Source of the DNA: Microvirga sp. TS319
GTDB taxonomy: Bacteria > Pseudomonadota > Alphaproteobacteria > Rhizobiales > Beijerinckiaceae
NCBI RefSeq assembly: GCF_041276405.1
Contig: NZ_JBGGGT010000002.1
Span: 3,838,501 to 3,902,500, forward strand
DNA: 64,000 nt
Reading direction: 5' to 3'
The translations under genes were made by a program, and so were the position numbers. Position 1 is the first letter of the stretch. Every line of letters starts with the position of its first letter. The notes under the pieces were generated by a model. The model had not been told where the DNA came from. It made no database searches and saw only the letters and a list, made by a program, of their open reading frames with translations. Shown one piece after another: positions 49,245-51,360 of this stretch.

Positions 49245-50924
49245 ATGACAGCGACCTCCCGCACCGGCGGCCAGATTCTTGTCGATCAGCTTCTCGTTCA
49301 CGGAGTCGATCACATCTTCTGCGTGCCGGGCGAGAGTTATCTCGCGGCCCTCGATGCGCTGCACGATGCTAACATCAACGTCACGGTCTGCCGCCAGGAA
49401 GGCGGCGCCGCGATGATGGCAGAGGCCTATGGCAAGCTCACGGGCCGCCCGGGCATCTGCTTCGTCACGCGCGGTCCCGGCGCGACCAACGCCTCGCCGG
49501 GCATCCACATCGCCAAGCAGGATTCCACGCCGATGATCCTCTTCGTCGGCCAGATCGAGCGCGGCATGCGCGAGCGCGAGGCCTTTCAGGAACTCGACTA
49601 CCGTGCCGCCTTCGGCCCCCTCGCCAAATGGGCGACGGAAGTGGACGATCCGGCACGCTTCCCCGAGATCGTTTCCCGCGCCTTCCATGTGGCGACATCC
49701 GGGCGTCCGGGGCCGGTCGTGATCGCGCTCCCCGAAGACGTCCTGACCGAGATGGCGGAAGTCGCCGACGCGCCGCGTTACCAGGTCATCGAGGCTCATC
49801 CCTCGCCGGCGCAAATGGCCGAACTGCAGACGCTCCTGCAGGACGCGAAGAAGCCCGTGGCGCTGCTGGGCGGGAGCCGCTGGTCTGAAGCCGCCGTGCA
49901 GGATTTCATGCGCTTCGCCGAGCGTTTCGAGCTGCCCGTCGCCTGCACCTTCCGCCGCCAGATGCTCTTTCCGGCCGATCACCCGTCCTATATGGGCGAT
50001 CTCGGGCTCGGCGTGAATCCGAAGCTGCTCGCACGCATCAAGGAGGCCGACCTCGTCCTGCTCGTCGGCGGCCGTCTCTCCGAGATCCCCAGTCAGGCCT
50101 ATACGCTGCTCGACATCCCGGCGCCGCGCTCGCGGCTCGTTCACATCCATCCCGATTCCAGCGAGCTCGGACGGGTCTATTCTCCGCATCTGGCCATCAA
50201 TGCCTCGCCCGTCGCCTTCGCGGCGGCCTTGGAAGGCGTGAATCCGCCGGCCGCCCTGCCCTGGAGCGAGGGCACGAAGACCGCGCATGCCGATTATCTC
50301 GCCTGGAGCGATCCCGCCCCCATCAAGCATGCGGGCAACCTGCAGATGGGCCAGGTGATGGCTCACCTGCGCGAGGTGATGCCCTCCGACACGATCTACT
50401 GCAACGGGGCAGGAAACTTCGCCACCTGGGTTCACCGTTTCTGGCCCTTCCGCCATTACGGCACTCAGCTCGCGCCGACCTCTGGCTCCATGGGCTACGG
50501 CGTTCCGGCCGGCGTCGGCGCCAAGCGCATCAATCCCGACAGCACGGTCGTGGTGTTCGCGGGCGACGGCGACTTCCTGATGAACGGACAGGAATTCGCG
50601 ACCGCCGTGCAATACGACCTGCCGATCCTCGTGATCCTGCTCGACAACGGCATGTACGGCACGATCCGCATGCACCAGGAGCGCGAGTATCCGGGCCGCG
50701 TCTCGGCCACGATGCTGAAGAACCCGGATTTCGCGGCCTATGCCAAGGCCTTCGGGGGCTATGGCGAGCGCGTCGAGACCACGGACGATTTCCCGGCCGC
50801 CCTCCAGCGGGCACTCACCTCGGGCAAGCCCGCGATCCTGCACTGCCTCTTGGATCCCGAGGCGATCACGCCCGCCATGTCCCTCTCGGCCATCCGCGAG
50901 AAGGCGCTGGCGAGCCGCGGCTGA
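49245..50924 (+). CDS. Thiamine-pyrophosphate-dependent enzyme (acetolactate-synthase-like)
   Basis: 559 residues in the three-domain IlvB layout: PYR domain with catalytic E52 (CRQEGGAAMMAEAYG), central Rossmann domain, and PP domain with GDG at 440-442 followed by NGQEFATAVQYDLPILVILL and Asn. No regulatory subunit gene is adjacent, and the protein differs from housekeeping IlvB, so a catabolic 2-oxo acid decarboxylase, lyase or synthase is as likely. Its place after lysine genes suggests a role on a 2-oxo acid from amino acid breakdown; that is inference. A 6-bp hairpin (50943-50960) follows the stop. Confidence 0.87.
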   Translation: MTATSRTGGQILVDQLLVHGVDHIFCVPGESYLAALDALHDANINVTVCRQEGGAAMMAEAYGKLTGRPGICFVTRGPGATNASPGIHIAKQDSTPMILFVGQIERGMREREAFQELDYRAAFGPLAKWATEVDDPARFPEIVSRAFHVATSGRPGPVVIALPEDVLTEMAEVADAPRYQVIEAHPSPAQMAELQTLLQDAKKPVALLGGSRWSEAAVQDFMRFAERFELPVACTFRRQMLFPADHPSYMGDLGLGVNPKLLARIKEADLVLLVGGRLSEIPSQAYTLLDIPAPRSRLVHIHPDSSELGRVYSPHLAINASPVAFAAALEGVNPPAALPWSEGTKTAHADYLAWSDPAPIKHAGNLQMGQVMAHLREVMPSDTIYCNGAGNFATWVHRFWPFRHYGTQLAPTSGSMGYGVPAGVGAKRINPDSTVVVFAGDGDFLMNGQEFATAVQYDLPILVILLDNGMYGTIRMHQEREYPGRVSATMLKNPDFAAYAKAFGGYGERVETTDDFPAALQRALTSGKPAILHCLLDPEAITPAMSLSAIREKALASRG

Positions 50925-50978
50925 TTGACGTGACCGGTGAGCGGCTTCTATAAGGAAGCCGTTCAACCTGGAGCTTTT

Positions 50979-51005
50979 ATGCACAGAGAGACCGAGTCCC
51001 GGTAA
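50979..51005 (+). CDS. Putative leader peptide of 8 residues upstream of yjhX
   Basis: ATG CAC AGA GAG ACC GAG TCC CGG TAA encodes MHRETESR. GGAG lies 5 nt upstream, an ideal ribosome-binding site. The peptide has no run of one amino acid that would mark a classical attenuator. Its coding sequence overlaps the first strand of the folded leader and one small hairpin, so translation would change the RNA fold. Confidence 0.4.
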   Translation: MHRETESR

Positions 51006-51074
51006 AGCCCGCCACCTGACAGGCGGGCGCGGCTGATCGCACAGCCGAATGCGCGCGTGTGCGCGCCTCTCTCT
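50985..51074 (+). ncRNA. Folded leader RNA (multi-helix junction) upstream of yjhX
   Basis: A 7-bp closing helix AGAGAGA (50985-50991) / TCTCTCT (51068-51074) encloses a small hairpin ACCG/CGGT (50991-51003). It also encloses three strong hairpins: GCCCGCC/GGCGGGC (51007-51028), CGGCTG/CAGCCG (51030-51047) and GCGCGC-GTGT-GCGCGC (51051-51066). The helices are contiguous with almost no unpaired linkers. It ends 28 nt before the yjhX GTG start. No known riboswitch class is recognised; it is not a tRNA. Confidence 0.5.
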
Positions 51075-51102
51075 TGCAACTCAACAAAGCTCAGGGTTTC
51101 CC

Positions 51103-51360
51103 GTGAACGTTTCACGCAATGGTCAGCGCGTGCTGCACGTGCTCGCCCAAGGCGGTCTCATTCGACATTACAAGGACGAGAACGGCCGCATTTTCGAAAT
51201 CGAATGCCTCACCCGTGAAGGGTGGCTCATGTCGCTCTGCACGATGGATCTGTTCAAGATGCTGCGCCAGAAAGGGCTCATCGCATCGTCGAACGGAGGT
51301 CCTTACCGCATCACGCGGCAGGGTTTGCGGGCGGTGAGGAGCCGGCCGGACAACCGCTGA
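51103..51360 (+). CDS. yjhX: YjhX family protein (putative toxin)
   Basis: 85 residues from a GTG at 51103, the same length as E. coli YjhX. The core QRVLHVLAQGGLIRH, then IFEIECLTREGW and KMLRQKGLIASSNGGPYRIT, is the family's winged-helix-like fold. E. coli YjhX has been listed as a toxin with YjhQ as partner. No acetyltransferase antitoxin gene is adjacent here, so a toxin role is unproven. The unusual structured leader directly upstream suggests post-transcriptional control. Confidence 0.87.
   Translation: MNVSRNGQRVLHVLAQGGLIRHYKDENGRIFEIECLTREGWLMSLCTMDLFKMLRQKGLIASSNGGPYRITRQGLRAVRSRPDNR

Follow-up and report, generated by a model that had tools for sequence, protein, structure and literature searches.

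A candidate toiL-like leader with an eight-codon upstream reading frame precedes yjhX (topAI) in Microvirga

In leaders of the ermB/ermC type, a ribosome stalls on a short upstream open reading frame (uORF), the RNA takes up an alternative structure, and the downstream gene is translated. The eight-codon uORF toiL, which controls topAI (= yjhX) in Escherichia coli, has been likened to these antibiotic-inducible leaders (PMC12121999, eLife 2025). As described in that paper, ribosomes stalled on toiL free the topAI ribosome-binding site; toiL is known from E. coli and from bacteria with topAI-yjhQP, among which the first seven residues of ToiL are conserved; and the absence of a chloramphenicol response in E. 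coli is linked to the absence of Ala, Ser and Thr codons. Rho-dependent termination within topAI, when the gene goes untranslated, is a further feature of the toiL-topAI system. When read from the DNA, an E. coli-type toiL encodes MLENVIIR followed by a stop at -139, and both codons and distance agree with the published account (PMC12121999). The main text of PMC12121999 contains neither "alphaproteobacteria" nor any word starting with "proteobacteria". No account of an alphaproteobacterial toiL was found among the listed titles and abstracts; this is a weak absence, most subscription journals lying outside the scope of that search.

The element described here lies in a 64,000-nt stretch of Microvirga sp. 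TS319 DNA (contig NZ_JBGGGT010000002.1, positions 3,838,501 to 3,902,500), referred to below as the window; the stranded parts of the leader and yjhX are on its forward strand. It very likely serves yjhX (topAI) as its 5' leader and acts as toiL does in E. coli. A first-pass annotation of the window recognised no named class for the leader; that there is none is not supported, since toiL, a uORF leader with a name, precedes this gene in E. coli (PMC12121999, 2025).

The yjhX (topAI) gene occupies 51103..51360 and encodes, from a GTG start, a predicted topoisomerase I inhibitor of 85 aa. Its identity as topAI follows from a profile match to PF09857 (129.5 bits; cut-off 27) and from 54% identity over 85 aa to an E. 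coli-type TopAI, while the inhibitor activity of this particular YjhX is a prediction. On the 5' side, the neighbour is an ORF for a thiamine-pyrophosphate (TPP) enzyme ending at 50924; on the 3' side, it is a transaldolase on the opposite strand. An in-frame ATG at 51049 was rejected as the start of yjhX: the extension contains stops in three loci (L016, L017 and L019), and the GTG is shared. A mobile or repeated element was likewise rejected, as there is a single full-length copy in the genome and the other five matches span 16-34 nt with E of at least 0.28. No solved structure for YjhX was found by sequence search, and no anti-phage family at the locus was matched by PADLOC.

The occurrence of PF09857 is patchy: it matches 69 of the 297 genomes sampled from the order, 20 of 385 from the class and 40 of 398 from the phylum. 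In two genomes, the yjhX matches are split across two stretches (G105:C24 and G265:C5), and these are probably decayed copies. Within the genus, gene and leader are strictly linked: PF09857 has one match each in 18 of 48 Microvirga genomes, and a covariance model of the leader has one match each in the same 18, directly adjacent on the 5' side. Beyond Microvirga, the leader model matches three Chelatococcus loci (L037, 67.9 bits; L036, 42.1; L035, 39.8). Of 20 other loci, 19 gave no match, including the E. coli-type locus L113, and the remaining one (L070) reached only chance level (12.9 bits, E 0.52). In the Chelatococcus loci L035 and L036, an insertion resembling a palindromic repeat separates the end of the leader match (1377) from yjhX (1501), and the uORF, MRRNAETR, is found at -247. 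Another palindromic sequence, AGAGCAT...GAATGCTC, is common to L066 and L067, within 230 nt 5' of yjhX; L066 has a uORF MSRLSESR at -259, and none was recognised within 234 nt in L067.

The uORF of the window (50979..51005; ATG CAC AGA GAG ACC GAG TCC CGG TAA) encodes MHRETESR, starts at -124 relative to yjhX and belongs to class 2 of the ToiL-like uORFs defined below. It is preceded by a Shine-Dalgarno (SD) sequence, GGAG, at 50970..50973, which is invariant in the 13 rows of an earlier Microvirga alignment (A3). The uORF is present in all 16 Microvirga rows of the covariation alignment (A4), as well as in L135 and L136. The Microvirga peptides read MRRETESR or MRGETETR, with MHRETESR in the window, and changes that are neutral for the peptide occur at codon 4 (GAG/GAA) and at the stop (TAA/TAG). 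Unpaired columns within the uORF are 95.2% identical among the Microvirga rows, against 73.4% for unpaired columns downstream; conservation of the helices does not explain this difference.

The first-pass annotation had proposed a compact multi-helix leader RNA, and the fold of 50943-51102 is indeed far more stable than expected: -78.5 kcal/mol compared with -52.4 +/- 3.9 for 200 dinucleotide shuffles, none of which was as low (z = -6.8). The uORF, its GGAG, the AGAGAGA/TCTCTCT helix (50985-50991 / 51068-51074) and four hairpins with short linkers were all confirmed, as was the end of the closing helix 28 nt 5' of the GTG at 51103. However, an outer helix had gone unmentioned, and the hairpin at the left edge probably belongs to the promoter (see below). 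The plan of the leader consists of an outer helix P1, an inner helix P2 and four hairpins, H1-H4. The 5' strand of P1 (50965..50977; AACCU at 50965-50969 and GAGCUUU at 50971-50977) overlaps the SD of the uORF, and its 3' strand (51086..51098; AAAGCUC at 51086-51092 and GGGUU at 51094-51098) overlaps the yjhX SD, AGGG, at 51093-51096. P2 takes six of the AGAGAGA/TCTCTCT pairs, joining AGAGAG at 50985..50990, which is codons 3-4 of the uORF, to CUCUCU at 51069..51074. H1 (50991..51003, ACCG-AGUCC-CGGU) spans codons 5-8 and reaches one base into the stop codon. It is followed by H2 (51007..51028, GCCCGCC/GGCGGGC) and H3 (51030..51047, CGGCUG/CAGCCG), both with variable loops, and by H4 (51051..51066, GCGCGC/GCGCGC). 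Single-sequence folds of 13 Microvirga leaders, compared by eye, share one plan and differ in details, most of all in L019.

Covariation was examined in 17 sequences (16 from Microvirga, the window included, and one from Chelatococcus), in which 95.8% of cells are paired. Double changes occur in 9 of the 36 pairs against 3.2 in shuffled alignments (none of 500 as high; at most 3 with the partners slid); these figures lean towards the structure, as P1 was placed by hand on the basis of folds of single sequences and the model guided the fitting of the alignment, and the shuffle control ignores relatedness, which inflates the test. The nine pairs fall in P1 (two), P2 (two), H2 (two) and H3 (three), and none in H1 or H4. 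In P1, C-G becomes U-A in 5 of the 17 rows and U-A becomes G-C in one; in P2, A-U becomes G-C in 7 of 17 and G-C becomes A-U in one. P1 is the least consistent helix, with 86% of cells paired. All cells of H1 are paired, yet three of its four pairs never vary, and H1 is therefore given little independent support; in H4, 98.8% of cells are paired. The number of further pair types did not exceed that in the shuffles (22 vs 21.2). RNAalifold did not find P1 in the 13-row alignment, which we think is due to a one-base shift of the 3' strand between clades. No Rfam covariance model matched between 50400 and 51600 up to E = 1, nor was there a match at the gathering score in seven related loci. Thus, among the checks proposed by the first-pass annotation, the Rfam search gave no family, covariation was present among homologues, and both helices and uORF were kept in the Microvirga relatives.

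Directly 3' of the stop codon of the TPP-enzyme ORF lies a promoter (50925..50953), with a -35 box TTGACG (50925-50930), an 18-nt spacer and a -10 box TATAA (50949-50953). TTGACG-N18-TATAA was found in 13/13 Microvirga loci of an earlier set, and TTGACG-N18-TATA[AT] in 18/18 distinct Microvirga loci, while the 30 bases 5' of the promoter vary between locus groups. From this conserved promoter, the leader transcript is predicted to start at about 50961, which makes a start downstream of 51074 unlikely. The left-edge hairpin GGCTTCTATAAGGAAGCC (50943-50960) straddles the -10 box of the promoter and is therefore probably absent from the RNA. It is part of an inverted repeat, CGGCTTC/GAAGCCG (50942..50961), which with a start near 50961 could not form a hairpin in the yjhX transcript.

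The arms of the repeat differ in sequence between clades and are still largely complementary, with 7-8 of 8 bases matching in 11 of 17 loci and 5-6 of 8 in the other six (5/8 in L010, L014, L018 and L019; 6/8 in L016 and L025). Overall, 84.1% of cells are paired against 74.8% in shuffles, and there are 14 double-change cells against 7.2 (none of 500 shuffles as high in either case); the number of pairs with double changes is not unusual (4 vs 3.1; 145/500). A second register of the repeat was weaker than the first and was set aside. Since YjhX should raise negative supercoiling, a putative supercoil-sensitive yjhX promoter acting through the inverted repeat is an attractive idea. Palindromes 5' of topAI-yjhQ in E. 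coli, together with a binding test, are mentioned in PMC4666372.

Are such uORFs restricted to Microvirga? Outside the genus, an eight-codon ATG ORF lies between -230 and -85 in 66 of 91 distinct alphaproteobacterial regions 5' of yjhX, a count made without hand exclusions, whereas 50 rounds of dinucleotide shuffling gave a mean of 4.24 and a maximum of 10. In 48 of the 91, the eight-codon ORF ends in Arg (0.68 in shuffles, maximum 3), and every other ORF length from 3 to 19 codons was seen in only 2-12 upstreams. In the phylum sample, in which 40 genomes have yjhX and 30 loci were given, four of five yjhX genomes outside the class gave a locus, with the peptides MLEIAVAR, MLENVIIR, MLELVTIR and the seven-codon MLENVII.

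By a rule of our own, 128 distinct YjhX genes were sorted into self-defined classes: class 1 (Glu3 and Val/Ala5; 31 genes), class 2 (Glu/Gln6; 64, of which 18 are from Microvirga), other (10) and those with no recognised leader (23). Class 1 is E. coli-like, with the pattern MLEIVxxR, and the MLEIV/MSELV form is kept in part of the alphaproteobacterial leaders. Class 2 includes the window and often ends in SESR or SETR; its position 5 is Ala, Ser or Thr in 54 of 64 peptides, and Thr in 16/16 Microvirga. Of the class 1 leaders, 15 come from the window's order, 3 from named alphaproteobacterial records, 8 from other orders of the class, 4 from other classes of the phylum and 1 from E. coli. Those of class 2 comprise 36 from the order, 18 from Microvirga, 9 from named Chelatococcus and Mesorhizobium and 1 from another order of the class. 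Hence, 63 of the 64 class 2 leaders are from genomes of the window's order or from named Microvirga, Chelatococcus and Mesorhizobium, the order in which sampling was also heaviest. A YjhX tree (85 columns, with 51 of 125 inner branches open) has three changes between class 1 and class 2. A YjhQ-like gene was found within 1.3 kb downstream in 7/28 loci of class 1, 0/43 of class 2, 0/9 of the other leaders and 5/13 without a leader; these counts, obtained by phmmer with three YjhQ-like acetyltransferases as queries (E no higher than 0.001) in loci with enough sequence, are uncorrected for relatedness. Taken together, the sequences suggest that toiL is a widespread proteobacterial device, with a second peptide class that is concentrated in the window's order and may control a predicted topoisomerase I inhibitor without an adjacent antitoxin gene.

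Some loci lie outside these counts. L116 was added after the 66/91 count, L132 and L133 are in no count, and L160-L162 are yjhX loci outside all counts. One of them, on pSymB of Sinorhizobium meliloti Ak57 (L160), has a class 2 uORF MFHQSESR at -147; another, on the Agrobacterium plasmid pAtK224b (L161), has a ToiL-like MFTIAGNR at -118 ahead of yjhX and a GNAT gene, and is a plasmid-borne form that resembles a toxin-antitoxin locus with a leader. In L069, an apparent ToiL shortened to five codons (MSELV and a stop, at -115) lies beside a YjhQ-like gene.

How might such a leader work? In unstressed cells, the SD region of the uORF would pair with that of yjhX in P1. The four-hairpin core and P2 would secure this pairing and keep translation of yjhX very low. 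A ribosome translating the uORF might stall at or near its start, because of a drug acting on initiation or early elongation or for lack of a charged tRNA; its footprint would then take the 5' strands out of both P1 and P2 and so open the yjhX ribosome-binding site (RBS), and the topoisomerase I inhibitor would be made. P1 is probably the functional switch of the leader. The suggestion of the first-pass annotation that this looks like a cis-regulatory leader which ribosomes on the uORF would open is supported; the helices, uORF and spacing are conserved, with covariation.

This switch was modelled by partition functions for 105 leaders, with the ribosome footprint as 31 blocked nt. In this model, the yjhX SD region is mostly paired with the uORF/SD region, at a mean probability of 0.64 in 18 Microvirga leaders, 0.68 in 31 of class 1, 0.64 in 46 others of class 2 and 0.75 in the 10 remaining, and of 0.86 in the window's own locus (L007). 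For a wider RBS window, pairing is 0.39, 0.64 and 0.53 (Microvirga, class 1, other class 2) compared with 0.08, 0.14 and 0.11 in mononucleotide shuffles (five per leader); from this wider-window model fifteen peptides were excluded by hand as unlikely by place or pattern, and five seven-codon peptides were admitted by hand. With a footprint at codon 1, the mean accessibility of the SD goes up from 0.33 to 0.46 in Microvirga, 0.30 to 0.66 in class 1, 0.33 to 0.63 in other class 2 and 0.11 to 0.56 in the other leaders, while footprints between uORF and yjhX bring no rise (0.33, 0.31, 0.34 and 0.13, respectively). The gain from codon 1 exceeds 0.05 in 13/18 Microvirga, 29/31 class 1 and 38/46 other class 2 leaders, whereas the average over footprints at other places in the leader reaches such a gain in 0, 4 and 3. 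Opening in Microvirga occurs only at codons 1-4 (0.46-0.55, then 0.34-0.36), whereas all eight codons open the E. coli-type leader. The Microvirga leader is therefore predicted to sense stalls at the start codon or early in the uORF, with stalling at codons 1-4 turning yjhX on. Late stalls could still act, because the model ignores the size of the ribosome and its kinetics in the loop.

Several results run counter to this model. Five of the 18 Microvirga leaders gain no more than 0.05 from a codon-1 footprint, and the opening is modest; in the Chelatococcus locus L037, SD accessibility even falls, from 0.60 to 0.46. Of the 128 YjhX genes, the 23 without a recognised leader include 5 beside a YjhQ-like gene. 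Cognate uORF/RBS duplexes are stronger than non-cognate ones by only a modest margin (-25.8 vs -22.7 kcal/mol; median rank 18 of 86), in a comparison from which five peptides were excluded by hand as unlikely, again by place or pattern.

Other explanations for the same features must be weighed. The uORF could sense particular charged tRNAs rather than antibiotics, as in an amino-acid attenuator, with the same RNA switch and a different signal. The candidates would be Arg or Glu in the window (R3, E4, E6 and R8), or Ser in many class 2 peptides, such as MSSSSESR; several Ser and Thr residues are indeed found in many of these peptides, the MRRETESR clade has AGA as its third codon, and in the model it is early stalls that open P1. 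Yet no run of a single residue is conserved: 7 of the 16 Microvirga rows have Gly as residue 3, and from genus to genus positions 2-4 change freely. Nor does yjhX belong to a biosynthetic pathway, and this reading is unlikely. Less probable again is a passive arrangement, in which hairpins and uORF act as a folded spacer, lowering yjhX expression or keeping RNases off, without sensing anything. Overproduction of YjhX should be harmful, so that constant repression alone could be selected, and the Microvirga loci have no nearby YjhQ-like gene; however, an exact length of eight codons, often ending in Arg, recurs across genera and outside the class, and the unpaired bases of the uORF are unusually conserved.

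The first-pass annotation had also listed a riboswitch among the options, and a compact four-hairpin junction with covariation and without a matching Rfam class is what a small-molecule riboswitch with a multi-branch junction might look like. Against this, conservation is poor in the loops of H2, H3 and H4 (identity 0.60, 0.69 and 0.78) and in the P2-P1 linker (0.65), compared with the uORF (0.96). Furthermore, the Microvirga model has no real match in 20 loci from genera other than Chelatococcus, while the uORF and its predicted RBS pairing persist, and the E. coli leader works via ribosome stalling, as described in PMC12121999. A riboswitch is accordingly very improbable, the least favoured of the three alternatives, and a toiL-like leader is the preferred reading.

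If the yjhX leader is toiL-like, its signals may differ from those of E. coli. By analogy, one idea is that the Ala/Ser/Thr codons of class 2 allow a response to chloramphenicol or linezolid; it is weaker for the window itself, because a stall at codon 6 leaves P1 closed in the Microvirga model. It is tempting to go further, although the scenario is improbable, and picture a self-contained circuit by which Alphaproteobacteria couple translation stress to DNA supercoiling. A second-class ToiL (mostly Ala/Ser/Thr5, with Ser/Thr7) would gate a topoisomerase I inhibitor that has no antitoxin beside it and would respond to stresses without effect on E. coli ToiL, phenicols or oxazolidinones for instance, and in Microvirga the repeat at the -10 box would make transcription responsive to supercoiling, closing a feedback loop. 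The role of a lone YjhX under translation stress, and the relation between the sequence of an eight-residue peptide and the drugs that stall the ribosome on it, become testable questions, for which S. meliloti with its class 2 example is a tractable organism.

The closest known systems resemble the Microvirga leader to different degrees. With ermB/ermC-type leaders, it would share the short uORF, the stalled ribosome, the alternative structure and the resulting translation of the downstream gene; yjhX is not a resistance gene. With the YjhX-YjhQ toxin-antitoxin system (PMC4666372), it shares a product of the same family, PF09857, but a YjhQ-like acetyltransferase lies beside yjhX in 0/27 Microvirga locus records (1.3 kb downstream, duplicates included). 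The likeness to toiL extends further. The downstream gene is from the same family (PF09857, topAI); the uORF of the window has eight codons, ends in Arg-stop and has its own SD, and the uORFs of both lie 120-140 nt 5' of the gene; the SD region of the uORF is predicted, with covariation in P1, to pair with the yjhX ribosome-binding region; and a footprint at the start codon frees the yjhX site in the model. On the other hand, MHRETESR and MLENVIIR have only length, Met1 and Arg8 in common, and the first seven residues of ToiL are thus not kept. Pairing in the window is centred on the SD of the uORF, while that in E. coli runs along the uORF; only stalls at codons 1-4 open the modelled site, compared with all eight in the E. 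coli-type leader; the window leader has a four-hairpin core; and no YjhQ-like gene was found 3' of Microvirga yjhX. The window element therefore looks like a structurally distinct, divergent variant of toiL, for which we infer a mechanism of the same kind.
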